Below, piece after piece: positions 21,034-40,560 of a DNA stretch of 64,000 bases (positions are counted from its first letter, which is position 1; the number at the start of each line of letters is the position of its first letter). Position numbers and translations under genes: made by a program. This DNA is from Sphingobium fontiphilum. Lineage in GTDB: Bacteria; Pseudomonadota; Alphaproteobacteria; Sphingomonadales; Sphingomonadaceae. The stretch covers positions 62,001 through 126,000 of the forward strand of contig NZ_JACIEB010000001.1 of NCBI RefSeq assembly GCF_014196635.1. Reading direction: 5' to 3'. The notes under the pieces are model-generated. The model had not been told where the DNA came from, searched no databases, and saw only the letters and a list, made by a program, of their open reading frames with translations.

Positions 21034-21038
21034 CCTGG

Positions 21039-21064: not shown

Positions 21065-21080
21065 TCATGCGCCCGCACCC

Positions 21081-24000
21081 TTATTGCGCGGGGCAGTCGG
21101 CCGGGCGCGGGGTCTGGTCGCAACGGTCCTTGTCCCCCGCATAACCCTGAACATCGACGAAGATCTGCGTTCGTTGCTCGTCGCCCTTGCCAGCGGTGGC
21201 CGCCTTGGCGGCTTCGCTCGCCGCGGCCGAGGCCGCATTGGACGCCGCTACTGCGCCTGCATCGACCACGGGGGAGGATACGACGCCGATGCTGGCGCCG
21301 CCGACCTGGAAATTGTCGGCATTGGCGACCGCTGCTGCGGCGACGAACAGATTGCCCGCAACGCGCACGCCTGCATCGCCTGCGTCGACGGTGCCGCGCG
21401 GCGCGATCAGGAACACGTCGGGCGGGGTCACGCCCACGGCCGGAGCAAAGGCGGCGATGCCCGCGCCCGAAACGCCGCCCACGGCGTCGACCTGGCTAAA
21501 GCCATTTTCGTCGATCCGCACGACGACCGGCGGGAAGCTGGCGGCGCTCTTTGGCCCCTGCCCGGCGTTGAGGTCGCCGTTCGAGGACCAGAGCGTGATG
21601 TCGCCGCCGCCGCGCGTGAACAGGCGGCTCTGGTTGAGCAGCAGGCTGCCGTCGGTAAAGCTCATCAGGCGGCCGCCGCGCAGGGTGATGATGCCTTCAT
21701 AACCCGCCGGGATCGACGAGATGGTAGCCGGGCTGATCTGGCTGAAGCCGAGCGCGGGGTTGCCGTTGGCCGAGAGCGAGACGGCGCGGTCGCCGGCGAA
21801 CAGGCGGGTGCCGTCATAAGTGCGGCGGGCGGCCTGTTCCGACGTGCGTACGGTCGAGCCGGCGAGGATGCGTCCGCCCGGCCCCAACAGCGCGATGTCG
21901 CCGCCGCGCGCGGTCTGGATCGTCGCGATGCGGAGGTCAAGATTACCGGTTTCCACCGTGTCCGACGCCCCAGCCTCGCCCCCTTCCAGATTGTTGGCGG
22001 TATAGCCAAGATCGGGCGAAAACAGCGTGTTCACCGCACGATAGCCACGGCTATATTGGAGATAGGAGGGGCCGTCGGGCCGCGATGTCATTTCCAGCTC
22101 GTTGAAATAGATTTCCTTGATGAGGAAGCTGCGCTGGTTAAGTTCCGGCAGTGTCAGGAAGGCGTCATAAGCCTGCTGCGCCGTCACGGATGTGGAGCCA
22201 TAGCGTTGCGACAGCAGATCGGCGGCGTGAGCCTTCATCCAGGCGATCAGGATCGGGCCATAGATGGGCTGGGTGCGATCAGCGATCAGGTTGCCGTTGG
22301 CGTCCTCCACCTGCACGAACAGGTCGTCGTCGAGGTCGGCGATGTTGGCCGGGTCGACATAGATGTCGCGCAAGCTGGCGTAATCAGCGCCCTTGCCTAC
22401 GCCGAACAGCACGTTGATGTCTGCGCCGGTTTCGCCCAGCGCAGGGTTCCATTCATTGCCGATGGAGAGGATTCCGCCACCCATGGACAACTGGCCATAA
22501 AAGTCGATTTCGCCGTCACGAACCCGGCGCGGGTCGACTACCGCCGAATTGAGGAACGGTCCTGCATCGCGCCCTGCCTCCAGAACGAAAGCGCCGGGGC
22601 CGCCGATGACGAAGCTGTTGCCCTGAAGCGCGGGCAGCGGATCGCCAAAGACGCCATTGCCTAACTGCGCGCGCGTCAGTGTCGCGGTGGCGATGATGTC
22701 GCGCCCGGCGACAACGCGGGTGATGTCGTTGGCGGTGATATTCTGGTTGAACAACATCATGTTGACGATGTCGCGCCCGGCGCTGATCCGCGCCTGCTTG
22801 GGCAGGGACAGAATCAGGTCCAGGGCATCGCCACCGGCATGGACGCGCACCGGCTCATCGTCGCCCAGATGGGTGATGGCGCTGTTGTGCAGCGCGGCGC
22901 GCTCGGCCGTCGATGTATCGGGCAGGATGACCGGGAAACTGAAATCCTGACCGGCGACCAGCGTTGCCGGTTCGGTGACGCTGAACGCCGAGAAATAGCC
23001 GGGCAACTGGCCGGGATCGCGATCCTCCATGGTGATCGTTGTGGCGTTGATGTCGCCGCCCGCCAGCAGGCGCAACTGGCCCGTCGGGCTGGGGAAGAGG
23101 TTGATGGTGCGTGCGCCGCCCGGCTCGGCCCGCGCCGCCGTCAGCGTGAGGTCGCCGGTTAAAGAGGCGAGGTTGACTGTGGCGGGATAGACGGCCGTTG
23201 CCGCTTGCCCCGTGCGCCCGGTCACCACGGTCGCGCCCTGATCCAATATCGAAATGCCGCCATTGGCGATCAGGTCGATGGCCGAATTGGCCGAGTAGAA
23301 GCCAAAGGCATTGAGAGCCATGGTCGGGTCGCTGCCGTCGCCGCGCGCGCCCAGAGCGGCGATGCCTTGCAATTGGGCGGATCCGCCGACGTTGAAACGG
23401 ATATGGGCGTCGTTGATGCGCACCCGCAGCAGATTTTGCGCCAGTTCGCCGCTGACGAAGCTGGCCAGCGTGCCTGCGCTTCGGATGGACCCGGCGATGG
23501 CCAGCGCGCCGTCGCCATGGGCCAGATCGATCCTGCCGCCCAGCAGGTCGCCGCCAGCATTGACCAGAATGTTGCCGCTGCCCCAGTTCATCAGCGTGCG
23601 GGTAACGGTCAGCCCGTCGCTGCTCACCGCGTCGGCGGTTGTCGTGCTGGACAGGGAAGCCAAGGTCAGGTCGGAAATGTCGCCGCCAGCACGGAGCGTG
23701 AGCGATCCGCCACCCAGTGCGCCGATGCCGGACGTAAAGAGCTGGGTGTTGATGCGCTGGTTGACGCTGTCGCCAATCGCGCCGATCCGCCAGGGCTGAT
23801 CCGATGAACCAATGAATGAGAAGCCTGCGTTGGCGACGCGGGCTTCGCCATAGACGTCACGACGGCCCAGCACATCGCCCAGCGCACCGACGCCGATGTC
23901 GCCGCCGCCGGTCAGATAGGCAGGATCGTTGGCGAACAGGCCGGCAAGCGCCGATTGCGATCCACGGCCATAACGGAAGCTGCCGATTTCCTCATCGCTT

Positions 24001-27000
24001 GGCGCAGCGGCCAGATAGGATGAGGGGTCGACCGTCAAAACTTCGCCGGTCTGCATGTTGGTGGCCATGACCAGCCCCGTCGCGGCCAAATGGCCGACCG
24101 TGTAGACCGATGTCCCGCCCACCTGGTATCGAGTGCTGCCCACGGCGCGGGTTGTGACCGTGTCGCCGTTGCGCAGGTCGACGTCGCCCGCGGCGGCGAT
24201 GCTGATGTCGCCGGTGCCCGTGCGGACCAGCGTGCGAACAAAGGCAGTCGTGGATGTTTGCGACGAGCCGCCCGACACGATGCCCGTTGCAGGATCAAGC
24301 ACCAGCGCCGTCAGGTCCGCCTCAATCTCCGTCAGGAACGCTTCGGCCAGGGCGGCCGTGGTGCTGACCGCGGTGGGATTGGTCGATCCCCCTTCATAGC
24401 GATAGGCGCCAGTGGTCTGGGCGCCGAAATAGGCCAGGGCCCGCGCCCGCAGGAAGGAGGAAATGGCACCATAACGGCCGCCCGACAGGTTGATGGTGGT
24501 GTAGCCGTTTTCGCGCGGGCGCAGCGCGTCGCCATTTTCGCTGACCAGCTCGTCAAAGCCATAATAGAAGCGGCCGTTGCCCAGGACGATATCGCCACCG
24601 AAGGTCGCGCCGCCACCCGCGCCATAGCCATAGCTGCGTTCGCCTTCCACCGACACCTTGCCCAGCGATGCGGCGTCGACACGCAGCGGATCGATGGAGG
24701 GGAGGCCGCTGGTGCCCAAGCCCAGATCGGCGCCGCCGACAAGCGTGTAGCTCCACGAACCCGCGACGCTGCCATCAGACAGGATCGGGAACAGGCTGGC
24801 CGAACCGATTGGATCGCCCGCGCCATCCGTTCCAGCGCCCAGTGCGGCCGCACTGTTGGCAAGCGCATTATAAGGCATGTCGTTGGGCAGTGGCTGCGGC
24901 GGCACCGATACTTCGGTGCTGGTCGAGGACAGGGCGCTGAAATTGATCAGCGCGCGCAGCAGTTGGCCCGAGTTGGTGTAGGAGACGATGCCCGGGCAAC
25001 TGCGTGGACCAAAGCAACTGAGCGGCACGACAATCTGACGCGAACCGCCCGTGCCGCCGATCACCTTGACCAGATAATCGGGATCGGACTGGTCGCCGAA
25101 GGTGAACATGCCGTCCGTGATCGAACCGGCGATGGTGAGGTCGCCACCGGCCCGCAGCGTCAGTGCTCCGGCCGCGCCATAGATGCTGCCGCCGACGCGA
25201 TAGAGGAAATCGGCATGATTTTCGAGCAGTTCGGCCTCACGCCCGGCGTTCACGACGACCTTTCCGGGCAGCAATGTCGACTGGCGCATCACGCCAGCGG
25301 CCATTGCGCCGTCCACATCGATGTTCGCGGCGGCGAAATTCCAGTTCGACGCCAGCTTGATGTCGCCGCCATAGGTCAGTTCGATGCCGGGACGGGCGAG
25401 GAAGACCGGATTGTCCGACAGGGCGCCCAGATTGGCATAGGCCGCCGAAATATCGAAATTCTCGATGAACTGCGGAATCGTGCCGTCGCCGCGCGCCGCC
25501 AGGAAATTGACGAGGCCGGTTGCCGTCTGCGCGGTGTCGAGCACGGCCGTGCCGTTGACAATCGTGACGCCCGTATAGCGCCCGTCAGCGGCGATAGCGC
25601 CCAGATCATAGCGTTTGAACGCTTCCGCCGTAATCGCGCGTGCGCCGTTGATCGTGCCTGCGAAGCTGGCGTTGATGCTGTCCGCGCCATCCTGTTCGAT
25701 GATCGGCGCGCGCAGCGTCAACGTGCCGCCCTGATCGGAATCGACATAGCTGAACAATGTTTCGCCGTTGCGGATGACCGGCACCAGCCGGTTGCCCGAA
25801 CGCAGCGCCCGCAGGTCGATGGTCGCGCCGCTGTCGATCGTCAGCGCGCCTGTTCCATCGGTGCCGAGCAGCACATCCCCCGCGCTGGCCTGACGGGAAT
25901 CGTCATTGGCATAGCCATCGGCGCTGGCGTCGATCAGCGATCCGGCACGCAAACGCACCCCGGTGCGACCATAGAGCGAAACGTCGCCGCCATTGATGCC
26001 CGAAGTGTCAATGGCGCCGCCAATGTCGACGCCGCCATTTTCCGACGCCAGCAACAGATTTTCAGCGATCAGCGTGCGTCCGGCGGAGAGGGTAAGATCG
26101 CCCGAGCCCGCATGGATATTGATCGTCCCGGTAAAGCCCTGGGGCGCGGCGCTGAAACCGTCCAGGTCGAATGCGCCCCCCGTATCGAGCGTCAGCGAGC
26201 CGCCGCCATCGGGGGCAGCGCCGTCGATGACACCGCCCAGCGTCACCAGACCCTTCGCCGCGCGAAGCGCCAGCGCGCCAGCCTTGCCCTGCGTTCCGCC
26301 CACGCTCATGCGGGTGCCGGTGCCGGCGATGATGCTGCCATCGACGCTGGTGAGGCTGAGCGTTCCACCCGGCGCCGACACCAGATACGGATCGGCTGAA
26401 TCGCCAAATTGGCGAGCGTAGGACGGTGCTTCCAATATGGCGCCGTCGGTCAGGCTGATATCGCCCGTCGCCCTGGCGCTGAGCAAACCTGCGGTGGCGC
26501 GCAGATGCGTGCCCGAAATGAGAATGTCCTGCGCTGTCAAAGCCAGCTTTGCGCCGGGTGTGCCATCGGGCAGCACGACGCCCGCCGTGCCGGTGATCGA
26601 CAGGCTGGCGTCGGTGCCCAGCGACAGTGACGGCAGCGTGGCTTCGACCCCCGGCAGCAGCGTGATCGCGGCGTCGGCGATGAACGGGGTGGCGAGAGAC
26701 AGGTCCGCGCCACCCACCGACAGGCCGCCCACGCCGTCATAACGGATACCGTTCGTCGCGCTGATCGACACCGACTTGCCAAAGCCATCGACACCCAGAA
26801 TGCCCGAGCCGAAGCTCAGCGCGCCGGTTTCGACAAACAGGGATCCTTCCGCGCAGGGCGCCGCACAATTGATCGTCGCGCCGCTGCTGTTGGCGAGGCG
26901 CAGCGAGTCCGAACGGATGGTGACCGATGCGGCGCTGTCACCGATCAGGCCAAAGCCGCTGCTGTCGAAGGTGACGGCGCCAAATTCATACAGGCTGCCG

Positions 27001-30000
27001 CCGTCCGCCGCTTCAAAGCGGATTGCGCCTGGCGAGCGGACGGTGAGGTGATCGGCGCCGGCAAAGGCGGCGCGCAGGCCAGGGGTGATGACCAGCCCGG
27101 AAAGGCCATCGCTACTGGCCGCGAAGCTGACTTCGCGGGCGTCGAGCGCGACATTGCTGGCGGTTAGCACAGCCGATGCGTCGATGGACAGATCGCCGCT
27201 GGAACTGGCCAGCACGGATGTGCCTGACAGGGTGGCGGAGCCCACCGCAAGAGCGGGCAGGGCGCTTATCGTATCGCTGTTGACGCGCGAAACCATCCGC
27301 TCCACGCCATTGGCGACGCGCAGCACCGCGCCTTGCCCGGTCATGCCGCTGGTCGCACCGTCGATCAGAAAATCGGCGTTGTTGGGATCGGCCAGCGCGC
27401 CACTGGCTTTGATCGCTACCCCATCCGCGACGGTCAGCGTCGAACCTGCGCCATCGGTCGCGAACAGCAGTTCGGGCGCGGACAGGATGTGATCGGCGTC
27501 GTTTTCGATGCTGATGCTGGAGGCGCGAATGGAGAGGGAGGTTTTGCCGCTGGCCGTTTCGGTCCGGATGCCGCCGATGAACAGGCTCTGCACGCCAAGG
27601 GCGGTCAGATTGTCGGCGTCAAGCCGGATCACGCCATCGCTGCCCGCGTCGGCGCTGAGGTCTGAAACGATGCGGAACGCCTGGCCGCTGATGTCGGCCT
27701 GCGCGCCGCGACCGTCCTTGCCGGGGGTGGTCAGCAGGCTGGCTTCCAGCAGCAGGTTCGCAATCGGTTCCAGGATGATCCGACCGGCGTCGATCGGCAA
27801 GCGCGGAATGGCGAGACCATCGCGCTTTGCGGCGGCGGCGAATACGCTGTTCGCCGAGGTCGTCACGATCTTCGAATATTGGCGGAACGTGTCGGATGTC
27901 TGGAGCGAGAATGTCCGCAGCGTCGATTCACGCTGGCCAGTGGCTTCCGATCCATAATAGCCGGTGACGATCTGCGACCCGTCGCGCAGTTTCGCCGAGG
28001 AACCGACGATCGCCTCCGTGCCGGTCTGTTCGACGATGCGTATGCCGCCGGGCAGAACGGCGTATTTGGCGGGCAGCAGCACATACCAGCCACTGGCGAG
28101 ACCGGCGACATTTTCCAGATAGACGCTCTTGCCGACCGCAGACGCGCCATAAAGGTCGCCATAATCGGCGCCGAATATAGGATCGAACGCCGCCGCCGCG
28201 TCGCTGCTCAGGCCCGGGACGATGGCGTAGACCTGACGGCCGTCGGGGTAGCTCAGGCCATTGGTGCTGCTGTATGGGTCGGCGTTGAAGCGGTCGAGCA
28301 CATCGCGCGAGCCGCCCGTGCCCGGCACGAATTCATAAGCGAAGACATCGCCCCCGCCGCTGAGGTCGATGGTCGCGCCCGATTGCGTCTCAACGCTGGT
28401 TCCCGCCAGCCGCAGCACGCCGGTGGGCGGCGCGGTGAGCGGATCGTTGCTGGTCGGGTTGAAATAATATTCGATCTCGTCCGTGGTGGTGCCATAGGGG
28501 ATGGACAGTCCGCCTGCGGACACGGAGGTGATGCTGCCCGTTCCGATGACCACCGACGCGGTGACCGGGGCGAAGCGGCCGCTGCCGCCCGGCGTGAAGC
28601 TGGTTTCGTTCTCCAGCGCGGTGGTCGAACCCAGGGTGAGTTGGCCAAGCGGCGCATATAGGCTGCCATCCTGGACAATATTGGCGGCCTGCACCAGCAG
28701 GTTCGATCCCGCCGAATAGGGCGTTGTGGCGCTGCCGCCCTGGGGCCGGGCGAAGCGGATCGTCCCTTCATCGGCGGCGGAGGCGACCAGAAAGGACGAG
28801 CCGGTGGTGCTGTATGTGCGCGCTGCGCTCAATGTCAGGTCGCCGTTGACGACAAGCTGGCCGAGAAGCGAATTGCTGACCGCCGTGTCGAGTCCGAGCC
28901 GCTGTTCCACCGGCACGGCGCCGATCAGGCGCAGGTCGCCGGAACTCGCCAGGATGACATCCGAAATGCTGCGGTCGAACAGCACCGCGCCGCGCACGTC
29001 GACCGACTTTCCGGTGAAGCGAACCGTGCCTTCGCCGGTTGTGCCGACCAAGGGCGATGTCATGGCTTGAAGGAGGCTGTCGAAACGAATGAAGGGCGCG
29101 TCGATCGCCAGATCGCCCTCCGCCGAAACCGTGGGAAGATAGGCGCTGAAATCCGTCGCGTCCCCGTCAAACGGGCGCGACGAGAGGATGAAGGCGCGGC
29201 CGAGCGACAGCGACACATCGCCGCCGCCGGTCAGCGAACCATAGGCGATCAGGGTGTCAAAGCCCGATTGCATCACCTGATCGGCGGCGATCTGGCCCAT
29301 ACCATCGGCGTCTGCAATGCCCTGAACCAGTTGCGGGTCGACGAAGCTGAGCGTCCCCCCCTGCGCCAGCGCTGAACCGCCATGAGCGTCGATCAATGCG
29401 CCGCTGATCGATCCGCCGCCGCCGATCGACAGGGAACCGCCCGCGCTCCACGCAGCCTGGCTGACATAACGGTTATTGCTGTCGATCAGGTCATAAGTGT
29501 CGCTGGCGCCTGAAAGGTCGATGGTCGCGCCGGTCTCGGCCATGATCGTGCGTTCGGGGCGCACCGCGGCCGTGGCGATGGCGGTGCTGGCGAACACGCC
29601 TTCGCCCAGCAGGGGGCGATCAAAGAAGCTGCCTGCGCTGATCAGGCGGGACGCGGTGGACAGCGATCCGCCATCATAGAGATTGCCGGTGGCGCGCAGG
29701 GCGTTGGACCCGGCGATGGTGGGCGCGCGGGGATTGCGGATGCTGGCGCCCGACAGGTTGATGCTGCTGCCGCTCGACAGTCGAATGCCTTCGTCCGCGC
29801 CCAGTTCGCCGAGCAGATAGAGCGGCCGCAGGGCGAGTTGGGCGTTGGTGAGAAGTTGGCCCTCGTCGCTGATGCCCAGGGCGTTGACGCCATTTTCGGC
29901 GATCAGGCCGTCGCTTCTGACCGAGAAGAAATCGTTGAAGGCGCGGGCGCCGATGGCGTTGGCGTAAAGGGCGGGCAGCGTTTCCGCCTGGGTGACGCTG

Positions 30001-33000: not shown

Positions 33001-33737
33001 ACCAGCAGCGAATGGGTGTTGACCTGGGCGTTGGCGCCGAACATGACGCCCGCCTGATTGAGGATCAGGACGGTGCCGTCGGCCTTGATCGATCCCAGTA
33101 TCTGGGTCGGGGACAGCGTGGACCCGGCCGTTCGCAGCCCCGTTGCGGGATCAATTTCGCCAACGATCCGGTTCAGCGCCACCCAGTCCTTCTGAGCGAC
33201 GCCATTCTCCTTCTGGCTGAAGGTCAGCGTCGTGTTCGCGCCGACATTCATGCTTTCCCAGGACAGGATCGCGCGCTTTTCCGTCTGGGTGACGACAACG
33301 TCGCTCTTGCCGTTCGTTATCGTTTCAACCGGCGCCAGCGCGCCCTGCCATGTGCGCAGTCCGGTCAGGTCGCTGGCCATCGGCGTCGGATTGGCGACGG
33401 GCATCAATCCGCCCCTCACCAGGCCGTTGGGCACGGCGCCAGCGGCGGCGGCGGCCGCGCGCGCCGCCGCCTGCGCCTGCTGCGCCAGGTTCATCTGCTG
33501 CGCGGCCTTCGCCTGATTGGCGAGGGCGGACGCCGCCGCGCGCTGCTGTGCCGCGGTCAGCGGATTGGCGGACGCCGGACGCACGGTGACAGGCGAGGGC
33601 ACGGGCGCGGTGTAGACGCCAGCAGCGCCGCGCAGAACCGATGCATTCTGGGCAAAGGCCGGGGCAGCCATGCTGACCAGGCTGACACCGATCAGCAGGC
33701 CGGCGCGAGGACGGTTGCGATTAGCCGGTTTCATCAC
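21081..33737 (-). CDS. Giant two-partner-secretion exoprotein (filamentous haemagglutinin-like TpsA)
   Basis: The 4218-residue protein has a signal peptide (to about residue 29, APAFAQ), then an Ala/Gln-rich linker (about 57-103), then the TPS secretion domain (about 120-330). The TPS domain contains WESMNVGANTTLTFSQ, VALNRIVGEIDP, PTQILGSIKADGTVLILNQ and VMFGANAQVNTHSLLVSSM. The long middle is repetitive beta-helix rich in Gly, Ser, Ala and Asp. The C-terminal part with SFTDGSLLLNQSRLFTRGG and ITLWSSNGDLNAG resembles the DUF3739 region of haemagglutinin-family proteins. The last 13 residues hold a cysteine pair (C4206, C4215). It is probably exported by the TpsB encoded at 38702 and displayed as a surface adhesin. 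GTG 33737 or ATG 33734 may be the start. Confidence 0.92.
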   Translation of the reverse strand: MMKPANRNRPRAGLLIGVSLVSMAAPAFAQNASVLRGAAGVYTAPVPSPVTVRPASANPLTAAQQRAAASALANQAKAAQQMNLAQQAQAAARAAAAAAGAVPNGLVRGGLMPVANPTPMASDLTGLRTWQGALAPVETITNGKSDVVVTQTEKRAILSWESMNVGANTTLTFSQKENGVAQKDWVALNRIVGEIDPATGLRTAGSTLSPTQILGSIKADGTVLILNQAGVMFGANAQVNTHSLLVSSMEIGRATALNGSISQALTLAERNREYLAYGLLGFRDQASSAERPSAFAFSPMAGSDGSEGGITIARGARITSGDSGFIIGLAPDIVNMGTLTSSNGQVSLQSGRRFFLDRSEGTATSISPFIRGLVITTQALANDAPDSVINGAGAIISADRGYVSLGASQNGAVLQSGILRSTTSVARNGMISVTGGDIRLDAGSLLLLNPDTGAETIPQSAASIASFKTSQIQIGSATSRIEIGSDSLLLAPSADVTIGANAGLAGILAEDATAGQSRIFIDSGATIDVGGVKDYVVPSSRNLIRISPVKGNELRDTPLYRAEFLNGTTVLIDPRLSGVREDGVRWIGSPLIEAASYYEQVGVAASELMTSGGNVTLGVSGHGAADSALAPDIIVKSGARIDISGGWVRYEGGPVQTSRLLTRSGQLVDIGLADPNGDYVGLVEGYTEVQPRFGLSTTYANPVLTGARVEAAYTEGRDAGSLTLKGSAIAFDGTLSAQAFAGARQRAEAKVGTAASTIYGDTRALQGSASELPASGYLNVQGLSQITTDVLGGAGDIRIIRASDIAPLSSSLTFGQSFSFDENGKLVRTERDAGSYLDAGRRDSIWLSADMLNEAGLSQLTLQTSGRIGLDADAAISLADGGAFIGIAGRGIGIDGSVTTHGGAIDLRTVQITQGSVFTDDPIAAGSFDIVVNGTLSTRGRWANDFGNSGLIDGAAYLDGGSISLRVAPRVAIAVAGTNKVREDVSGSILINDGATLDVSGGGYVDVNGRVDMRARGGDVSLINQTNYFQLSPIPLLGLEAEGNVPGIRVTNNPAPENAINPDAINARVSIADGSILAHGFAGGGTFSLETPALSFGEEPAESGTALSLDFFEKTGFANYALTSFGTSLTENNFINRLDGYNALLKTQTLAIGAGETLNLTQSRFTPVLSAAQQLSLMNLETGGSLYSILTPLVMPDAYDRLGATLTLGGLLELHVEQGGSITGDARAALTTPKLWNEGSIRLIGGSVTQAETLPALYANAIGARAFNDFFSVRSDGLIAENGVNALGISDEGQLLTNAQLALRPLYLLGELGADEGIRLSSGSSINLSGASIRNPRAPTIAGSNALRATGNLYDGGSLSTASRLISAGSFFDRPLLGEGVFASTAIATAAVRPERTIMAETGATIDLSGASDTYDLIDSNNRYVSQAAWSAGGSLSIGGGGSISGALIDAHGGSALAQGGTLSFVDPQLVQGIADADGMGQIAADQVMQSGFDTLIAYGSLTGGGDVSLSLGRAFILSSRPFDGDATDFSAYLPTVSAEGDLAIDAPFIRFDSLLQAMTSPLVGTTGEGTVRFTGKSVDVRGAVLFDRSISDVILASSGDLRLIGAVPVEQRLGLDTAVSNSLLGQLVVNGDLTLSAARTYSTTGSSFLVASAADEGTIRFARPQGGSATTPYSAGSNLLVQAANIVQDGSLYAPLGQLTLGSTTALENETSFTPGGSGRFAPVTASVVIGTGSITSVSAGGLSIPYGTTTDEIEYYFNPTSNDPLTAPPTGVLRLAGTSVETQSGATIDLSGGGDVFAYEFVPGTGGSRDVLDRFNADPYSSTNGLSYPDGRQVYAIVPGLSSDAAAAFDPIFGADYGDLYGASAVGKSVYLENVAGLASGWYVLLPAKYAVLPGGIRIVEQTGTEAIVGSSAKLRDGSQIVTGYYGSEATGQRESTLRTFSLQTSDTFRQYSKIVTTSANSVFAAAAKRDGLAIPRLPIDAGRIILEPIANLLLEASLLTTPGKDGRGAQADISGQAFRIVSDLSADAGSDGVIRLDADNLTALGVQSLFIGGIRTETASGKTSLSIRASSISIENDADHILSAPELLFATDGAGSTLTVADGVAIKASGALADPNNADFLIDGATSGMTGQGAVLRVANGVERMVSRVNSDTISALPALAVGSATLSGTSVLASSSGDLSIDASAVLTASNVALDAREVSFAASSDGLSGLVITPGLRAAFAGADHLTVRSPGAIRFEAADGGSLYEFGAVTFDSSGFGLIGDSAASVTIRSDSLRLANSSGATINCAAPCAEGSLFVETGALSFGSGILGVDGFGKSVSISATNGIRYDGVGGLSVGGADLSLATPFIADAAITLLPGVEATLPSLSLGTDASLSITGTAGVVLPDGTPGAKLALTAQDILISGTHLRATAGLLSARATGDISLTDGAILEAPSYARQFGDSADPYLVSAPGGTLSLTSVDGSIIAGTGTRMSVGGTQGKAGALALRAAKGLVTLGGVIDGAAPDGGGSLTLDTGGAFDLDGFSAAPQGFTGTINIHAGSGDLTLSAGRTLIAENLLLASENGGVDIGGAIDTSGINGGDVSLYGRTGVRLRAGSLIDASADGYANDDSRQASAGDVLLGTDGTGALTIDSGATIDLRALRSGNRLVPVIRNGETLFSYVDSDQGGTLTLRAPIIEQDGADSINASFAGTINGARAITAEAFKRYDLGAIAADGRYTGVTIVNGTAVLDTAQTATGLVNFLAARGDGTIPQFIENFDISAAYANLGALSDNPVFLARPGIELTYGGDIKLASNWNFAAANIDVDGAMAAGVMRQSTLLPGKVVVNAGREAELLENHADFLYRVGGSIYGAAGALTLRAGGDLTIAGSITDGMFTFGDQSDPDYLVKVIGGTGGSRQIVVPLSCFGPRSCPGIVSYTNSGQLLRALINFSALSSTSTEVSVPPQPLPNDMPYNALANSAAALGAGTDGAGDPIGSASLFPILSDGSVAGSWSYTLVGGADLGLGTSGLPSIDPLRVDAASLGKVSVEGERSYGYGAGGGATFGGDIVLGNGRFYYGFDELVSENGDALRPRENGYTTINLSGGRYGAISSFLRARALAYFGAQTTGAYRYEGGSTNPTAVSTTAALAEAFLTEIEADLTALVLDPATGIVSGGSSQTSTTAFVRTLVRTGTGDISIAAAGDVDLRNGDTVTTRAVGSTRYQVGGTSVYTVGHLAATGLVMATNMQTGEVLTVDPSSYLAAAPSDEEIGSFRYGRGSQSALAGLFANDPAYLTGGGDIGVGALGDVLGRRDVYGEARVANAGFSFIGSSDQPWRIGAIGDSVNQRINTQLFTSGIGALGGGSLTLRAGGDISDLTLASLSSTTTADAVSSDGLTVTRTLMNWGSGNILVNAGGDLLGGRIDLAHGDGALAIAGSIRSAGTLASFVSGELAQNLLRVRINDAHIRFNVGGSAQLQGIAALGARGDGSDPTMALNAFGFYSANSAIDLIANGGISILDQGATVVTGRTGQAATAVYPATVNLASLTGDLTLTAARAEPGGARTINLFPSPTGQLRLLAGGDINATTITMEDRDPGQLPGYFSAFSVTEPATLVAGQDFSFPVILPDTSTAERAALHNSAITHLGDDEPVRVHAGGDALDLILSLPKQARISAGRDIVNMMLFNQNITANDITRVVAGRDIIATATLTRAQLGNGVFGDPLPALQGNSFVIGGPGAFVLEAGRDAGPFLNSAVVDPRRVRDGEIDFYGQLSMGGGILSIGNEWNPALGETGADINVLFGVGKGADYASLRDIYVDPANIADLDDDLFVQVEDANGNLIADRTQPIYGPILIAWMKAHAADLLSQRYGSTSVTAQQAYDAFLTLPELNQRSFLIKEIYFNELEMTSRPDGPSYLQYSRGYRAVNTLFSPDLGYTANNLEGGEAGASDTVETGNLDLRIATIQTARGGDIALLGPGGRILAGSTVRTSEQAARRTYDGTRLFAGDRAVSLSANGNPALGFSQISPATISSIPAGYEGIITLRGGRLMSFTDGSLLLNQSRLFTRGGGDITLWSSNGDLNAGQGPKSAASFPPVVVRIDENGFSQVDAVGGVSGAGIAAFAPAVGVTPPDVFLIAPRGTVDAGDAGVRVAGNLFVAAAAVANADNFQVGGASIGVVSSPVVDAGAVAASNAASAAASEAAKAATAGKGDEQRTQIFVDVQGYAGDKDRCDQTPRPADCPAQ

Positions 33738-33787
33738 TGGTCGTTTCCTTGGGTTAATTGCGCGCGCAAATATAATTCTTCGGCTCC

Positions 33788-33815
33788 CGCCCCGGATGCG
33801 ATGATGCGCGGGGCG
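33788..33815. promoter_or_regulatory. Intercistronic hairpin between porin and tpsA
   Basis: CGCCCCG (33788-33794) and CGGGGCG (33809-33815) form a 7-pair stem with a 14-base loop in the 97-base gap upstream of tpsA. No T run follows on the minus strand. It may protect or process the transcript, or lower tpsA expression relative to upstream genes. A 12-base palindrome TTGCGCGCGCAA lies at 33758-33769. Confidence 0.35.
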
Positions 33816-33834
33816 AGGGGCCGGTTCATGGCGA

Positions 33835-35670
33835 TCAGAAGCCGGCCACCAGGTCGATCTGAAGCACGTCGATCGACAGCGGGTTGCCGTAAATTTCGTT
33901 GGAGCTGAGATAGCGGCCGGTCAGGCGCAGATTCTTCGCGATCATATAGTCGCCCGACACGATATAGCCTTGCGCATTGGTGCCGCCGAGGTGGAAATCG
34001 CTGTCGGCCAGGCTGTCGAGCACGGCGTCGGGCTCGATCCGGCGATAGGCGGCGCCCACGCGCCACTGGCCCGCCTTTTCCAGCGCCTTGCTGCCGAGCA
34101 GGGCCTGGACCATCCAGGCTGTGTCGCCGCTTTCATAGCGGGCGACGAGCGGGCCGCCGTCGACCGCCGTGCTGTTGGCGAGCGCCGCACAAGGATTGGT
34201 GTTGACGACATTGGTGCGCGATCCGGCGGGGTTGGACGGATCGACCGGGACCGACACGGTCACGCCGGTGATGTTGGTCACGGGCAGGCCGTCGGGCAGG
34301 TTGGCGCAGGCGTCGCTGCGGCGGTATGCCAGATTTTTGAGGAAGGTGCCGCTCAGCGAGAAGCGCAGATCCTCGCCTATGTCGGCATGAACCTCGGCGC
34401 TGGCTTCCAGGATGTTATAATCCTGCAACAGGCCGACGAACTGCGGCTGGGGCGAATTGAGCGGATCGGCCGGGTCGACCGCCAACCGGCGCAGCAGCAT
34501 CAGCGTGTTGCCCTTGGCCAGGAAGGCGGGGCGGGTGTGATCGGTCGAACATTCGACCTCGCCCAGATAAGGCGAGCAAATGTCCGAAAGTTCGCCGCGG
34601 ACATTGGAGAAATCGAAATATTTGGCCGACAGCCGCGCGCCGATGTCGCCGCCATCCCAAGCCAGCGCCGCTTCGCCGCCATAGATCCATTTGCCGTTGC
34701 GGCGAGTCTTGCCGACTGACGTCGACGGGTTGTCCTCACCCACATATTCGAAGGGGAAGGCGCCGCCCGTCAGCGCCAGGTTCAGGCCCGAACCCAGCCA
34801 GTCGCCGCTGTCCGCCCGCGCGGCGACGCCGTCGAAGTTCAGATCCTCGTCGAACAGGATTTCGTCGGTGATGAACGGGTTTTCAAACCGGCCGAAGCTC
34901 AGGCGCAACTGGTTGAAGGGCTGAAGCCGGACAAAGGCGCGATCGAGCCATATATCCTTCTTGGAAAAGCCGCCACCCAGCAGGGTGGTGACCGAAACCG
35001 GCCCGTTATTGTTGCCGCTGGCGAGCAGCAGGCCCGCCTCGACACCCTTGGTGATCTGCGCTTCGACACCCAGACGCGCGCGGATCGACAGCCGGTTCAG
35101 GCGATCCTGCCGGGTGTTGAGCAGGGGCAGGGTATTGAAGTTCGCGCTGCCCAGCAGGTCGGTCGGCCCGTTCTGGTTATAGGCGGCGAAATCGATGAAG
35201 TCGTTGGCGTTGCCATCGGCATAGATGTTCGACTGGCTGCGGAACCGCACGTCGCCGGTAATCTTGATGCGATCCACCCATTCGGGCACGGCGCCGGGGG
35301 TCGCCCAGCCTTCGCTTTGCGCCTGGGCCAGCACTTCCTTGCGGACCTCGTCGCGGATCTCGTCCTTCACCGCCTGCGGGACATAGGGGACGCGGACAGC
35401 GCCCGGCGCGGGCGGCGGCGGCACGGCGGCGGCCAGCTTGGCCTGGGCGGCGTCGGCCTCTGACTGCGCCTGCGCCAGCAGCGCCTCGCCAGCCTCCGCC
35501 GTGATGACCTTCTGTCCCACCAGCAGGCGGATCAGGTTAACCATGGCGTTGGGCGAAGGTTCGGCGGTCGCCGTCTGCGCCCATGCGGGCGTCGTCGCCG
35601 TCAGCAACGCCGCCAAACTTGCCGTCGCCGCCAGCGTGCGCGCGGCCTTGCCGTGAACGAGCCTGTTCAT
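33835..35670 (-). CDS. Putative outer-membrane porin
   Basis: The 611-residue protein has a signal peptide (to about AWAQ), then a helical, likely coiled-coil segment (NLIRLLVGQKVITAEAGEALLAQAQSEADAAQAKL is the region; Pro/Ala-rich linker after it). A beta-barrel follows, ending in the outer-membrane signature phenylalanine (IDLVAGF). This matches the putative-porin (Porin_5-like) family. ATG 35670 has AAAGGGA 5 bases upstream; in-frame ATGs at 35694 and 35697 are alternatives. It lies 38 bases after the tonB gene and 97 bases before tpsA, in one leftward run. Its link with a private TonB motor suggests that it may be an energised or accessory channel, which is an inference. Confidence 0.85.
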   Translation of the reverse strand: MNRLVHGKAARTLAATASLAALLTATTPAWAQTATAEPSPNAMVNLIRLLVGQKVITAEAGEALLAQAQSEADAAQAKLAAAVPPPPAPGAVRVPYVPQAVKDEIRDEVRKEVLAQAQSEGWATPGAVPEWVDRIKITGDVRFRSQSNIYADGNANDFIDFAAYNQNGPTDLLGSANFNTLPLLNTRQDRLNRLSIRARLGVEAQITKGVEAGLLLASGNNNGPVSVTTLLGGGFSKKDIWLDRAFVRLQPFNQLRLSFGRFENPFITDEILFDEDLNFDGVAARADSGDWLGSGLNLALTGGAFPFEYVGEDNPSTSVGKTRRNGKWIYGGEAALAWDGGDIGARLSAKYFDFSNVRGELSDICSPYLGEVECSTDHTRPAFLAKGNTLMLLRRLAVDPADPLNSPQPQFVGLLQDYNILEASAEVHADIGEDLRFSLSGTFLKNLAYRRSDACANLPDGLPVTNITGVTVSVPVDPSNPAGSRTNVVNTNPCAALANSTAVDGGPLVARYESGDTAWMVQALLGSKALEKAGQWRVGAAYRRIEPDAVLDSLADSDFHLGGTNAQGYIVSGDYMIAKNLRLTGRYLSSNEIYGNPLSIDVLQIDLVAGF

Positions 35671-35708
35671 TTCGGTCCCTTTTCTTGCGGTCATCATGCT
35701 TGCCGCTC

Positions 35709-36425
35709 TCAACTTCTGGTGCCGCGCACCACGGTGCGCTGTGGAAACTGGATGCCCGGCTGGGGCGCGCGCAGCGAAGAAACGCCGCGCAGAGAGGCGA
35801 TCACGCGATCGTCCAGATCGGCATTGCCGGTGCCGCTGACCTTCTCCGCGCGCGTCACACGGCCATTGCCGTCGACCCAGATCAGCACGGTCATGCTGAA
35901 GCGTTCGCGCTGGATGGCTTTGTCCCGCCGCAGGGCGTTTTGCAGGGCGGAACTGAGATACTGGCGATAGAAACTGTCGCTGACCCCGCCGCCACCGCCG
36001 CCGCGCCCGCAATTGGTGCCGATGCAGGTGCCAAGGCTGCCGGGGCTGCCCATGCCGCCGCCGGAACCGGCGCGCATTCCAAAGGCGTCGCTGCCCGCCG
36101 TAGCCGGCGCGTCGATGCTCATCGGCGCGGGTGCTTCGGGCGTGGGATCGGGCGTCGGTGTCGGGGTCGGATCGGGAGAGGGCGTGTCGAGCTTTTCCGG
36201 CGGCGTCTCTTCCTGTGGCGGGGGAGGCGGCGGCGGAGGCGGCGGCGGGAGCAGGTCGACGGTCGTCGATGGCGTTCGCGGCCGTTCCACGCCCGTCCGG
36301 CTGTCCATCGCCGACCACAGCCACAGGCCCGCAACCGTCATCAGCGTAAGGATGACGGCCGGGATCAGCAACCGTTGCCAACGGAAGCCAACTCTATCTT
36401 GCTCGGGTGCCGTTATGCTGGCCAT
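35709..36425 (-). CDS. tonB: TonB-family energy transducer
   Basis: The 238-residue protein has an N-terminal membrane anchor (residues about 19-38, LLIPAVILTLMTVAGLWLW). A periplasmic linker follows, with eleven consecutive prolines (60-70) and then PT/PD repeats. A Gly-rich stretch with C134 and C139 (TCIGTNCG) precedes a TonB C-terminal domain (about 150-238) containing VLIWVDGNGRVTRAEKVSGTG. TonB couples the proton-driven ExbB-ExbD motor to outer-membrane proteins. ATG 36425 follows the exbD stop by 34 bases; the frame is open upstream, but that extension overlaps exbD. The cysteine pair in the linker is unusual. Confidence 0.9.
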   Translation of the reverse strand: MASITAPEQDRVGFRWQRLLIPAVILTLMTVAGLWLWSAMDSRTGVERPRTPSTTVDLLPPPPPPPPPPPQEETPPEKLDTPSPDPTPTPTPDPTPEAPAPMSIDAPATAGSDAFGMRAGSGGGMGSPGSLGTCIGTNCGRGGGGGGVSDSFYRQYLSSALQNALRRDKAIQRERFSMTVLIWVDGNGRVTRAEKVSGTGNADLDDRVIASLRGVSSLRAPQPGIQFPQRTVVRGTRS

Positions 36426-36459
36426 GGGGGTTCCGATGTGTGGAAGGCGCCGCGCCGGT

Positions 36460-36861
36460 TCAGTTGCTCTTGCCCGTGGCAAGGCCGACCTTGTTCAGTT
36501 CCAGCTTGCGCAGCAGGTCCAGAACTTCGGTCACCTTGCCATATTGCACCACCTGGTCGCCTTTCAGCACGATGGGCACTTCCGGATTGGTCGCCTTTTC
36601 GGTGCGCAGCCGCGCCTCCAGTTCGGCAAGCGTCACCGGATAGGCGTCCATGAACACCTGCCCCTGATCGTTCACGGTGATCGCGATGGTCTTGGGCTTG
36701 GCCAGGTTTACGGCAGAACTGGCCTTGGGCAGATCGACCTTGATCCCCTGCACGCTGGCCGTGGTCATGATGATGAAGATGACCAGCAGCACGAAGGTCA
36801 GGTCGACCATCGGAGTGATGTTGATTTCGTTATATGCCTTGCGGCCGCCACCAACGTCCAT
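36460..36861 (-). CDS. exbD: ExbD/TolR family biopolymer transporter
   Basis: The 133-residue protein has the N-terminal membrane helix with the conserved proton-relay aspartate (NITPMVDLTFVLLVIFII) and a periplasmic domain ending LLRKLELNKVGLATG. ExbD works with ExbB to energise TonB. It sits between the exbB fusion (23-base gap) and tonB (34-base gap) on the same strand. The motif EINITPMVD is fully conserved, so the protein should be functional. Confidence 0.95.
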   Translation of the reverse strand: MDVGGGRKAYNEINITPMVDLTFVLLVIFIIMTTASVQGIKVDLPKASSAVNLAKPKTIAITVNDQGQVFMDAYPVTLAELEARLRTEKATNPEVPIVLKGDQVVQYGKVTEVLDLLRKLELNKVGLATGKSN

Positions 36862-36884
36862 GAATAATCTCCCTGATCTGTCGC

Positions 36885-38663
36885 TTATTCGGCGGCTTGC
36901 GCGATGGCGGCGTCGCCGGCCTGCGCGGGCGGCGGCGTCATGCTGTGGTGATGGGTTTCAGCCAGGCGGGTGATGAGACGGTCTACGAAGACGCGCATTT
37001 CGTTGGCGATGGTGACGACCCGCGAGTTCAGATAATTATATCCGAACAGCGCCGGGATCGCGACGCCGAGGCCCGCGACCGTCGCCAGCAGCGCGGCGGC
37101 GATGCCCGGTGCGATGGCGTTGATATTGACGTCGCCGGCGGCCGCAACTTCGCCGAACACCAGCATGACGCCCAGAACGGTGCCCAGCAGGCCGATGAAG
37201 GGGCCGCCGGAAATCGCGATGGTCAGCAGCACCATCCACTTGTCGAGCTTTTCGTTCTGTTGGACCTGTTCAGCATCGACCGAGGCGCGCATCGCTTCGA
37301 TGGTTTCGGCGGTGAGGCCCTTTTTCTTGAGCTGCATGCCTTTGCGCAGGTCGAGCTCTTCCATGCCGACGTCGTAAAGCGCCTTGAGCGGCGCCTTGTC
37401 GATCAGGGCGCGCTCTTTCGCCTCGATCCCCTGAACCTGGGCGAAGGGGACGAGGTCATCGAGACGGCGGAAATGCTTCATGAAGGCGCGGTTGGCCTTG
37501 TCGGCTTCGCCCAGATAGGTCGCCTTGGCGAACATGACCCAGGCGGCGATGCCGAACATGATCATCAGGATGAAGATGACGACCCATGCGTCGAACGGCG
37601 TGTTCTGGACGATGGTCAGCAGCGGGCTGTGGCCGCCGCCCTGCTTTTCGTCCGCGCCGAACGCCACAAGCTTGTCGCCCGCGCCCTCGTTCTTCGCCTC
37701 GACCAGGATCGCGGCGGCGGAGCGCGCGACCTTCGACAACCGGACTTCGTCCATTTCGCCGACAAAGCCGCCGCCCAGCGCAATCGGTCCGGCCATGGCG
37801 GGCAGGGCGGTCGAGGCCGCCGCCGTTTCGACGCCGTCGACATAGATGCGCAGAGTCTTGCCGTCAGCGGCGACGGCGAGGTGCGACCAGTCGCCAGCTT
37901 TGAGCGGCTGGCTCGATTCGAGGCGCGCGCCGCCAGCAGTGACGAACGGGGCGGCGTTGTTGAGGCCAATGGCGAAATCGCCGCGGCCAAACAGGGTGGA
38001 TTGGCCCGGCTGGCCAAGCTTGACCCAGGCGGAGAAAGTGAAGGCGCCGCCTGCGGGGATGGCAAGCGAAGGGCTGTCGGCGATGTTGAGCGGCGCGTTG
38101 CCCGGGAAGCGGGCGCCGCGCGCGATGATCGCGCCGTCATTTACGCCGGCGGGCGCGTTCTGGCTGTTGTTCTTATTGGCGGTCGCGTCGCTCGTCGGCT
38201 GGCCGGGACCGTCGGTGAAATGGAAGACGGCGGCGTAATCGGGGTCGAAACTGCCCGCGACATCCTGTCCCACGGGCGCATTCTTGTTGCCGTAATAGAG
38301 ATGAATGTCCTGCTTTTCCCCGCCATTGAGGTTGGGGACGCTGACCCAGATCGTGGCGATCTGGTTCGCCGCGTCATATTTTTCGATGTGGAACGGCAAG
38401 GGCGTCTTGTCGTCGGCGGCGGTGAAGCGGAGGTCCGCGCCGGTGTCGAGGCTGTCGGAGAAGCCGAAATTGCCGCTGTGCAGCCGAACGAGGACCAGGG
38501 TGCGGCCCACCGCGCCCGGCACGTTCAGCCCTGACGCCGTCGTGTCCAGCGTAATGATCTTGCGATATGGCCAGTCATTTTCCCACCAGCCTTCGGCGGC
38601 GAGGGCGGGCGTGGTCAGCGAAATGCTGAGCAGCAAGGCTGCCAGCCAGGAACCCATACGCAT
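36885..38663 (-). CDS. exbB: DUF2341 / LamG-like / ExbB proton-channel fusion
   Basis: The 592-residue protein fuses three parts. After a signal peptide (to about residue 23) comes a DUF2341 domain (about 24-115; WWENDWPYRKIITLD to DIHLYYGNKNAP). A LamG/concanavalin-like lectin fold follows (about 165-315; FTFSAWVKLGQPG, WSHLAVAADGKTLRIYVDG, GFVGEMDEVRLS). A C-terminal MotA/TolQ/ExbB channel starts at DAWVVIFILMIMFGIAAWVMF and includes GPFIGLLGTVLGVMLVF and ALLATVAGLGVAIPALFGYN. A normal ExbB lacks the two periplasmic domains. ATG 38663 has GGGGAG 8 bases upstream. It belongs with exbD, tonB and the TPS genes. The periplasmic lectin part may sense or bind glycans or the exoprotein. Confidence 0.9.
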   Translation of the reverse strand: MRMGSWLAALLLSISLTTPALAAEGWWENDWPYRKIITLDTTASGLNVPGAVGRTLVLVRLHSGNFGFSDSLDTGADLRFTAADDKTPLPFHIEKYDAANQIATIWVSVPNLNGGEKQDIHLYYGNKNAPVGQDVAGSFDPDYAAVFHFTDGPGQPTSDATANKNNSQNAPAGVNDGAIIARGARFPGNAPLNIADSPSLAIPAGGAFTFSAWVKLGQPGQSTLFGRGDFAIGLNNAAPFVTAGGARLESSQPLKAGDWSHLAVAADGKTLRIYVDGVETAAASTALPAMAGPIALGGGFVGEMDEVRLSKVARSAAAILVEAKNEGAGDKLVAFGADEKQGGGHSPLLTIVQNTPFDAWVVIFILMIMFGIAAWVMFAKATYLGEADKANRAFMKHFRRLDDLVPFAQVQGIEAKERALIDKAPLKALYDVGMEELDLRKGMQLKKKGLTAETIEAMRASVDAEQVQQNEKLDKWMVLLTIAISGGPFIGLLGTVLGVMLVFGEVAAAGDVNINAIAPGIAAALLATVAGLGVAIPALFGYNYLNSRVVTIANEMRVFVDRLITRLAETHHHSMTPPPAQAGDAAIAQAAE

Positions 38664-38701
38664 AGTCTTTGCTCCCCAGACGCAAGCCCCATGGCGCGCC
38701 A

Positions 38702-40327
38702 TCAATATTCTGCCTTGATGCTGAAAGTGGCGAAGGGCCCCTTGCCCCGCGCCGAGTCCTCGATCGGCCAGGCGACGACCGCCTCACCGCTCAAAATCCT
38801 GAAAAACTGGAACCTTGTGCCCAGGCCCGCACTCCAGAGGGTGAAGGAACCCGGCGCACCGGACGCCGCATCGCGCAGGCGGACGCGGGCGCCATCGGAA
38901 AAGCCGAAAAGCCGCCATTCATCGACGAAATCGCCCAAAAGGCGAGCGAAGGACGGGCTGCGCAGTTCGACCGTCCCGGTGACGCCATCGTCGCCGACTG
39001 CTTCGGACTGGTAATAGCCGCGCACCGACGAAAGGCCGCCTGCTGCAAATTGCTCGTTCGAGATGAGCGGGCTGTCGGCCAGTTGGGCCGACGACCGGAG
39101 GAACAGCGCAATGTCGTTGCCGAAAATATGGGTGTAATCGACGTCCAGGTTGAAGTGGACGAAATTGGGACGGGCGTCGAGGCTGCCGCGCTTGTTCCCG
39201 AATATCGGATAGGAAATGCCGTCGATCACCACCGATTCGCGGCCGATGCCGCGTATGCCCGCCGTCGCTGACAGGGTGGCGTTGGCGATGTCGTGATCGC
39301 GCGCCAGACCGATGGTGTAGGCGGCGCTGGCGGCGACATAGTCGATCGGCGTGCGGATCGCCTCCTCGACGTCGGGAAGGGTGATGGTTTCCTTGAAATT
39401 TTTATAGTCGAAGCCGAAATTGAGCGAACCGAACAGGCCCTTCGCCTTGAACGGGGTCGACAATATACCCCGAACGCCGATGGCATAACCGTCGCCCAGC
39501 ACATTGGTGCCGCCCAGCGAGGCGATATTGCTGTTCGACTTGTAACCATAGAGCAGCGCGGACCATCGGCTGTTAGCCAGCGGCGCCAGATAGGAGCCGG
39601 AGACGACTTCCAAATTGTCGCGGTTCTGCGGCGCGGTCAGGTACGTCAGGCTCAGTTGATGGCCCACGCCCCAAAGGTCGGCATGGCGCAATGTGCCGAG
39701 AACACGGAGCGGGCGCGTGCCCTGGCTATAATCATTGCTTAGCTGCACCGTGCCATGGACGGGAAACTTGTCCTCGACGGTCAGTTCGACATTGATCGTT
39801 CCCGGTTCGGCTCCCGGCTCGATGAGCGGCGTGATCTGCCTGTCGGGGAAACGATTGGCCTCTTTCAGTTCCGCTTCCGTGCGGACCAGATTGGGCGCCG
39901 ATCCGGGCTGAAGCGACGGAAAGCGTTCGGCAATGTCGGCCGTGCTGGCATGGCGGGCGCCGCTGATCCTGATTTCGCCGAGCCGCGCTTCCGTCACCTG
40001 CAGCGTCAGCAGGCCCGCTTCAGCGGTTTGTTCGGGTATCTGGACGATGACGGATTGATAGCCCTTGTCATGATAAGCCTTTTCCAGGGCTGCGCGCGCC
40101 GATTCCACGTCGGCGGCGGACTTGCCCGGCCCCATGTGGCGATAGATCGCCCGCTCAATCTCATCGGTGGTGAGCAGGCTGTTGCCGAGCACATCATAGG
40201 CCATGATGTCGAGGGCGGCAGTAGCCGATTGCTGCTGAGCGGGCTGTACCGGCGCATTAGATGTCTCTGGAGCGGATTGTGCAGCAATCGCAAACACAAT
40301 GGCGCTCGCCCCCGCCAGGAACGGCAT
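38702..40327 (-). CDS. ShlB/FhaC/HecB-type TPS transporter (TpsB)
   Basis: TpsB is a 16-strand Omp85-type outer-membrane barrel that threads its TpsA partner across the membrane. The 541-residue protein has a signal peptide (AIAAQSA). POTRA domains follow (about 38-115, YDVLGNSLLTTDEIERAIYRHMGP, and 117-200, LGEIRISGARHASTADIAERFPSLQPG). The barrel carries the conserved FAAGGLSSVRGY motif (VRGY of loop 6) and FSIKAEY at the end. It is the first gene of the leftward six-gene run whose last gene is the TpsA. That separation by about 5 kb of motor and porin genes is unusual for TPS pairs. Confidence 0.93.
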   Translation of the reverse strand: MPFLAGASAIVFAIAAQSAPETSNAPVQPAQQQSATAALDIMAYDVLGNSLLTTDEIERAIYRHMGPGKSAADVESARAALEKAYHDKGYQSVIVQIPEQTAEAGLLTLQVTEARLGEIRISGARHASTADIAERFPSLQPGSAPNLVRTEAELKEANRFPDRQITPLIEPGAEPGTINVELTVEDKFPVHGTVQLSNDYSQGTRPLRVLGTLRHADLWGVGHQLSLTYLTAPQNRDNLEVVSGSYLAPLANSRWSALLYGYKSNSNIASLGGTNVLGDGYAIGVRGILSTPFKAKGLFGSLNFGFDYKNFKETITLPDVEEAIRTPIDYVAASAAYTIGLARDHDIANATLSATAGIRGIGRESVVIDGISYPIFGNKRGSLDARPNFVHFNLDVDYTHIFGNDIALFLRSSAQLADSPLISNEQFAAGGLSSVRGYYQSEAVGDDGVTGTVELRSPSFARLLGDFVDEWRLFGFSDGARVRLRDAASGAPGSFTLWSAGLGTRFQFFRILSGEAVVAWPIEDSARGKGPFATFSIKAEY

Positions 40328-40560
40328 AAACCCTCATTTTCGTGAACCGGATTACGCCGGTGTTTCCCCCTGATGCACCCGAAGGCACGAGGATCGTCTA
40401 TAAGGATATTTATTACTGTTATGAGACTATCTCGATCATTCCGATTTTGTAACAAAAATTGCATCAATATTAATTTAAAATGTCACAAATAATTCATCAT
40501 AGATTGTTTTTGGCGGGGCAGATGTTGCCTTCCTCGCATGTTGGACGCGGAACAGTCGTG
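40328..40560. promoter_or_regulatory. AT-rich divergent regulatory region
   Basis: This spacer between the divergent tpsB and SleB-type genes holds an AT-rich stretch at about 40444-40500, in strong contrast to the surrounding GC-rich sequence. It probably carries the promoter of the TPS/TonB operon and may bind an AT-preferring regulator. I could not assign -35/-10 boxes with confidence. An open frame starting at 40480 crosses it but lacks a ribosome-binding site. Confidence 0.4.

Follow-up and report, generated by a model that had tools for sequence, protein, structure and literature searches.

The window studied here, a stretch of 64,000 nucleotides of Sphingobium fontiphilum (contig NZ_JACIEB010000001.1, positions 62,001 to 126,000), carries on its minus strand, between 21081 and 40327, six genes that encode the two proteins of a two-partner secretion (TPS) system (the transporter TpsB and the giant exoprotein TpsA), the ExbB fusion, ExbD and TonB-like protein of a putative proton-driven motor, and a porin. 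We found that TpsA and TpsB, the motor and the porin are, judging from their distribution over genomes, one unit that is nearly always inherited together. From its profile matches and alignments this unit is a distinct TPS lineage, in which a TpsA with the domain DUF3739 and a TpsB without the plug-helix segment go with their own Tol/Ton-type motor and an arm-bearing porin, and in which a type II secretion system (T2SS) is a frequent neighbour. Regarding function, we propose by analogy that the motor may act on a periplasmic step in the display or release of TpsA, a reading to which we give a probability of around 40%.

According to the literature, type V export takes place at the outer membrane without any input of energy (PMC5422565), and here a widespread TPS lineage nearly always comes with a proton-driven motor. 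Furthermore, the unit is defined well enough for powered export to be tested directly. Should TpsA be the target of the motor, the textbook rule gains an exception and the Exb/Tol motors a task not seen in them before; should the target be the porin, a TonB-type motor would be shown to drive a plug-less barrel.

Co-inheritance and gene order

We analysed three samples: 299 Pseudomonadota genomes, the window's own included (phylum sample), 61 genomes of the window's genus (genus sample), and 80 named loci, which are the best of 338 relatives. The samples overlap, as identical match coordinates indicate that G369, G358 and G383 in the genus sample are the genomes of loci L055, L098 and L083, and that G094 in the phylum sample is the genome of L089. 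Three families served as markers: DUF3739 for the C-terminus of TpsA, DUF2341 for the ExbB fusion and Porin_5 for the porin.

Within the genus, the three families occurred in the identical 13 of 61 genomes with 14 copies each, G358 carrying two full sets. They were always on the same contig, DUF2341 and DUF3739 being about 17-19 kb apart. The 13 genomes are related and do not count as 13 independent events; presence in 13 of 61 members of one genus suggests that all three families were gained or lost jointly.

In the phylum sample DUF3739 was found in 11 genomes, and DUF2341 in 10 of those 11. Full-length Porin_5, with its N-terminal part, occurred in exactly the 11 genomes with DUF3739, whereas five others matched parts of the barrel only. 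We considered G230 as an exception to this co-occurrence and rejected it, because its set is broken by contig ends: the end of the 3.8-kb contig C52 falls within exbB, after which come exbD, tonB and the porin gene. TpsB proteins of the ShlB type were present in 134 of the 299 genomes. As controls we took 20 stretches of 20 kb around other ShlB matches, and none of the 20 gave a profile match to ExbB, ExbD, TonB, Porin_5, GspD or GspF. DUF3739 was also found in all of the 48 named motor genomes tested (40 plus 8), and as the gene set is found again in other alpha- as well as beta- and gammaproteobacteria and in Verrucomicrobiota, it goes beyond chance. A preliminary description of this DNA had read the six genes as belonging together, and the samples and the controls bear this out.

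Regarding gene order, tpsB, exbB, exbD, tonB and the porin gene were contiguous in 9 of the 12 sets of the phylum sample; in one of these nine, G146 C5, tonB was not recognised. The order in G019 is tpsB-tpsA-exbB-exbD-tonB-porin. In 68 of the 80 named loci the sequence continues for 4.5 kb or more behind exbB, and there we found exbD in 67 cases, tonB in 68 and a porin gene on the same strand in 66. Before exbB, in the 72 loci with at least 2 kb, the gene directly upstream was tpsB in 36, tpsA in 25 and neither in 11, and in the extended loci with tpsA before exbB, tpsB preceded tpsA in six out of six. A TPS gene lay within the locus in 74 of the 80. Four of the others (L063, L075, L122 and L128) have none despite at least 6.8 kb before exbB, and we rejected them as counterexamples because all four genomes carry DUF3739; the other two, L125 and L131, are on short contigs, with exbB at or close to the start of the locus.

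Of the findings that the preliminary description had named as contradicting it, some turned up in weak form. Separate neighbourhoods of motor and TPS genes are represented by G219, where the genes lie apart, by G127, where tpsA and the remaining genes are on two contigs, both near contig ends, and by the four TPS-less loci just mentioned. As for separate promoters, the tpsA of Pseudomonas aeruginosa (pdtA) does have its own, yet the region is co-regulated.

The range 21081 to 40327 excludes the T2SS genes that are often linked to these loci and may be seen as part of a wider unit. In the window they lie at 11328-21033 on the plus strand, convergent with tpsA: gspE (11328-13073), gspF (13073-14281), a pseudopilin-like gene (15488-16144), a PilN/GspL-like gene (15982-17163), gspM (17160-17711), gspD (18141-20180) and gspK (19978-21033). 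A secretin lay at most 30 kb from DUF3739 in at least 27 of 40 named genomes, chosen from the 80 loci for their long contigs, where uniform placement would give 2.2. The p-values for linkage, 8e-18 and 1.5e-13, overstate independence, since the genomes of the genus are related.

The six proteins and their surroundings

All six translations are intact and have Pfam assignments, and all six genes, including that of the 4218-residue TpsA, lie on the minus strand, as had been read before from the letters alone; the gaps of 23-97 bases claimed then agree with those computed from tpsB to tpsA (38, 23, 34, 38 and 97 bases with the listed starts). A crude scan of 20900-40600 yielded two promoter-like sites, neither of them on the minus strand but on the plus strand, and 11 terminator-like sites, five of them on the minus strand, which does not exceed the level in shuffled sequence; the scan speaks neither for nor against a single transcript.

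The tpsA gene (21081-33737) has no internal stops. The N-terminus of its product looks signal-like by eye, the TPS secretion domain (residues 140-250, 32988-33320) matches PF05860 with 44.3 bits against a cut-off of 33.5, and DUF3739 (21282-21608) lies near the C-terminus. In the TpsAs DUF3739 is followed by an Ala-rich linker and then a short tail motif, for example LSVEVLGFG. Of 54 tails, near-copies among them, 38 fitted the pattern [LI][ST]V[EDQ]VLG[FY]G, which was written after inspecting the tails, and 29 fitted a stricter version. The former occurred nowhere else in the same TpsAs (146,667 residues) and in none of the 31 large open reading frames (ORFs) of the control stretches, seven of which are recognisable TpsAs. 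The tail of the window, IFVDVQGYA (21138-21164), is a divergent form that misses this pattern. The C-terminus of FhaB remains on the periplasmic side, and by analogy the TpsA tail may also face the periplasm. As to copy number, Rhodoblastus sphagnicola (G315, L076) has nine matches to DUF3739 and the other 39 genomes have one to six.

The tpsB gene (38702-40327) encodes a transporter of the ShlB/FhaC type with POTRA_2 and the ShlB barrel, PF08479 and PF03865 both scoring above cut-off. Its VRGY motif was invariant in 13 of 13 TpsBs, and the sequence matches in the PDB were CdiB and FhaC. In a tree, one branch with support 100/100 separated 52 motor-linked TpsBs from 14 others, the latter including long branches; these are 14 of 19 controls, as in five the best ORF had no match to a TpsB profile. 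In FhaC the plug helix H1 and a linker precede POTRA1. The spacer from the hydrophobic core of the signal to POTRA1 had a median of 22 residues (8-51) in motor-linked TpsBs and of 55 (37-86) in 13 of the 14 tree controls (one had no POTRA match), with overlapping ranges (Mann-Whitney p = 1e-7). Judging from these lengths, the N-terminus of motor-linked TpsBs is in most cases too short for H1 and its linker, and in the window's TpsB there is hardly space for H1. The TpsB thus departs from the type by this helix, which is an accessory trait, and membership in type Vb is unaffected. The members from Verrucomicrobiota (L081, L084, L102, L110, L111, L117, L124 and L126) nest within the proteobacterial group of TpsBs, which suggests a transfer between phyla.

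Regarding the motor, the exbB fusion (36885-38663, with an open frame extending to 38705) combines an N-terminal signal or transmembrane segment, read by eye and from a structure model, with DUF2341 (38247-38441), a LamG-like domain (Laminin_G_3, 37707-38069) and an ExbB/TolQ channel (MotA_ExbB, about 36993-37349). It is one of five matches to the MotA/ExbB family in the window's genome. The model is of middling quality (mean predicted local distance difference test, pLDDT, 78.9), and part of its periplasmic region is predicted to resemble domain 4 of the arabinanase AbnA (5hon; template modelling, TM, score 0.70 by target length). The exbD/tolR gene (36460-36861) matches Pfam ExbD, and the tonB/tolA-like gene (35709-36425) encodes a transmembrane segment, a long Pro-rich linker and a weak TonB_2 C-terminus. 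This last match reached 20.7 bits and so fell just short of the cut-off (22); in the TonB alignment, nine of ten sequences, the window's among the nine, matched TonB_2 at E <= 0.01.

By alignment, the residues of the proton path are conserved in this motor: the membrane Asp of ExbD (D20) was invariant across 10 aligned sequences, the equivalent of ExbB Thr148 was retained in 90 of 90 and that of Thr181 in 89, the remaining one being a gap. We dropped the idea of a separate ExbB clade, as the tree had five reference rows only and an extreme branch (own_L157, length 10) among the motor rows, and did not settle the placement relative to TolQ and ExbB. Tandem exbD pairs were seen in 14 of the 80 loci (L075, L088, L091, L095, L099, L104, L106, L108, L113, L115, L121, L129, L130 and L134), all of them placed in Betaproteobacteria by their record titles.

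The porin gene (33835-35670) has Porin_5 as its sole Pfam match. The predicted structure (mean pLDDT 77.6, again middling) is an ordinary 16-stranded barrel with an N-terminal helical arm (35269-35553), and its best fold match was the attachment porin OmpM1 (TM 0.38 when normalised to the query length, 0.71 to that of the target); a sequence search of the PDB gave no match at E <= 1. The arm bears a VRVPYVP-type motif (35377-35397), in which the Tyr was invariant in 34 of 34 sequences and one Pro nearly so, and from the model this motif may face the periplasm.

Beyond the six genes, a cell-wall hydrolase gene (PF07486, 40480-41283, plus strand) adjoins tpsB in divergent orientation, and G146 C4 (L046) has a hydrolase gene in the equivalent position, 47% identical over the matched part. 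The whole block of T2SS and TPS-motor genes is flanked at 5778-8548 and 42142-49699 by genes of the exosortase A/exopolysaccharide (EPS) type, namely a TIGR03098 ligase, a decarboxylase, Wzz, a ParA-like ATPase, an AAA ATPase, a DUF3473 deacetylase and a GNAT/FemAB-like protein. An ORF of 619 residues at 9274-11133 (plus strand), preceding gspE, matched nothing in Pfam or NCBIfam at E <= 0.001.

What the motor may act on

In the reading we prefer, the export of TpsA would begin by the usual folding-driven route, and its C-terminus, with DUF3739 and the tail motif, would remain periplasmic as that of FhaB does. The motor would then pull, via the TonB-like arm, on the TpsA tail and/or on the porin arm or TpsB, and this pull would either finish export or set whether the giant protein is retained or released. 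Such a role would resemble the one proposed for the proton-conducting SiiAB with the giant adhesin SiiE. A bolder version, which we hold to be rather unlikely, is that this would be the first class of TPS driven by the proton-motive force, with a plug-less TpsB and a giant cargo that ends in a TonB-box-like C-terminal tail. By this tail a Tol/Ton hybrid motor of its own would drive, retain or release the surface protein, and the periplasmic arm of the porin would be a second docking point.

Several points weigh against an action of the motor on TpsA. The functional coupling is a proposal from sequence and analogy. Type V export runs in vitro without energy (PMC5422565), and SiiE reaches the supernatant without SiiAB (PMC12607715). 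The motor genes of G219 are on a separate contig from tpsA, tpsB and the porin gene. The porin, which follows tonB in 66 of 68 loci, would suit the motor as a target no less well than TpsA. The tail pattern was drawn from the tails themselves, some of them near-copies, and misses 16 of the 54, the window's among them. Finally, the equivalent of Glu176 of Escherichia coli ExbB is Ala in 79, Gly in 9 and Ser in 2 of the 90 sequences, so the coupling may differ from that of the standard Ton motor. ExbB3 of Sphingobium SYK-6 also has no Glu176 and was judged unlikely to work as an ExbB (PMC8599685); as all 90 motor ExbBs share this absence, that judgement may be unsafe.

The strongest rival is energised uptake through the porin, which is possible and in our opinion less probable than an action on TpsA. 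Here the motor would drive the porin via its N-terminal arm, TpsA would serve as a scaffold at the surface, either capturing substrate or holding the hydrolases that the neighbouring T2SS sets free, and the porin would import the products. Besides the position of the porin gene behind tonB on the same strand, the restriction of the N-terminal part of Porin_5 to DUF3739 genomes in the phylum sample and the conserved Tyr and Pro of the arm are consistent with this. HxuABC is a case in which a TPS protein supplies a TonB-dependent importer (PMC5422565). In P. aeruginosa the theme of the uptake would be phosphate: its vreAIR genes are PhoB-dependent, the TPS genes are co-regulated, and the neighbouring Hxc T2SS exports the phosphatase LapA (PMC2729926, PMC4971064). 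However, the window porin, the sole porin-like gene of the six, has no plug domain of TonB-dependent transporters in Pfam and is modelled as an ordinary barrel, and no binding protein or inner-membrane importer was recognised among the genes that recur in the unit, whose neighbours were annotated in part. Control by phosphate was rejected for the window, where we found one Pho-box-like match against 2.99 expected by chance.

A Tol-like work in the envelope is a good deal less probable. The motor and the periplasmic arm of the porin would fix or shift the outer membrane at the site of passage of the giant protein and the type II secretin, with no action on the cargo. The channel of the ExbB fusion does score nearer to TolQ than to ExbB, the only matches of TonB/TolA type of the TonB alignment in the PDB were to TolA, the best fold match of the porin is an outer-membrane attachment porin, and the divergent neighbour of tpsB, in the window and in G146 C4 alike, is a cell-wall hydrolase gene. 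Nevertheless, the matches to TolA are weak (E about 0.007), the tree gives no clear placement relative to TolQ and ExbB, and the strict pairing with DUF3739 and the tail motif of TpsA are left unexplained. None of the six window genes matched TolB or Pal in Pfam, where no search aimed at them was made.

Least probable of all is shared regulation only, with the genes travelling together for one condition and no physical coupling: VreI and PhoB do co-regulate the P. aeruginosa region and an insertion in the tonB homologue had no effect in a zebrafish test (PMC2729926), but the one-to-one copy number (the double set of G358 included), the spread over three classes of proteobacteria and Verrucomicrobiota, and the co-occurrence kept in G219 although the genes lie apart all speak against it.

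Comparison with known systems

The addition of DUF2341 to a channel subunit has been noted among the generic Exb/Tol 'GIT' channels, which are alike in this respect, in passages that give it neither a function nor a link to TPS (PMC12505986). In the main text of a TPS review of 2017 the word 'TonB' appears a single time, with reference to HxuC, and 'proton' is absent (PMC5422565). In the open-licence literature of PubMed Central we found no paper on DUF3739.

By analogy, the present locus may be compared with SiiA/SiiB and SiiE of Salmonella SPI-4, where a dedicated proton channel of the Mot/Exb/Tol family is tied to one giant surface protein; SiiAB conducts protons and is required for invasion, is dispensable for SiiE reaching the supernatant, and its link to retention or release is left open there (PMC12607715). 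SiiE differs in that it uses type I secretion, with neither a TpsB nor a porin. The HxuABC system of Haemophilus influenzae is not known to have a motor of its own. It has in common with our locus a TPS pair and a TonB-linked partner in one operon (PMC5422565), whereas its HxuC is a TonB-dependent transporter.

The preliminary description knew of no described system with this make-up, which did not hold, since the same genes in the same order have been published for P. aeruginosa PA0690-PA0696 (PMC2729926, PMC7035377, PMC4971064). The pdt/PUMA3 region PA0690-PA0699 comprises pdtA, phdA, pdtB, exbB2, exbD2, tonB4, the putative porin PA0696, PA0697, PA0698 (YbjN) and PA0699 (PpiC). Among these, tpsA (PA0690), tpsB (PA0692), exbB2 (PA0693), exbD2 (PA0694) and PA0696 were reported to be regulated and to lie next to the Hxc type II system, PA0695 was named a tonB homologue, and homologues of the TPS, ExbBD and PA0696 genes were found to adjoin PUMA3 in other bacteria (PMC2729926). 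One promoter serves phdA, pdtB, exbB2D2, tonB4 and PA0696-PA0701, and another pdtA alone (PMC4971064). Insertion mutants in tpsA, tpsB and the tonB homologue PA0695 overexpressing vreI were all as virulent in zebrafish as the wild type (Llamas 2009, PMC2729926), so this assay is not decisive. A paper of 2020 lists the pdt Ton genes as "still uncharacterized" (PMC7035377), and in the open-licence PubMed Central literature we found no study of the function of this Ton set.

The coiled-coil family at the position of PA0697 usually comes right after the porin, with profile matches in 65 of the 80 loci; one copy (L066:14629-15285) has no Pfam match. Profiles for this family, for PpiC and for extracytoplasmic function (ECF) sigma factors gave no match in the window plus 10 kb upstream. 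The ECF/anti-sigma (PUMA3) and PhoB control was thus not seen in the window; it is a regulatory trait outside the gene set.

The link between both loci is provided by Pseudomonas sp. PSB18 (L066), whose ten genes follow the published pdt order, PA0697 being assigned by position only: tpsA, a DUF772 transposase/weak Phd gene, tpsB, exbB, exbD, tonB, Porin_5, the coiled-coil gene, YbjN and PpiC. Therefore the window locus is, by homology, an alphaproteobacterial relative of the pdt locus, the P. aeruginosa side of the comparison being known from the published gene order. Both share the six functions and a neighbouring T2SS (Hxc in P. aeruginosa), and they differ in that the tpsA of the window comes after the porin and that its block sits inside an exosortase A/EPS locus. 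The gene set was thus already known, with its motor listed as uncharacterised, and what is new here is the near-obligate co-inheritance of DUF3739, DUF2341 and Porin_5 in the genus and phylum samples.

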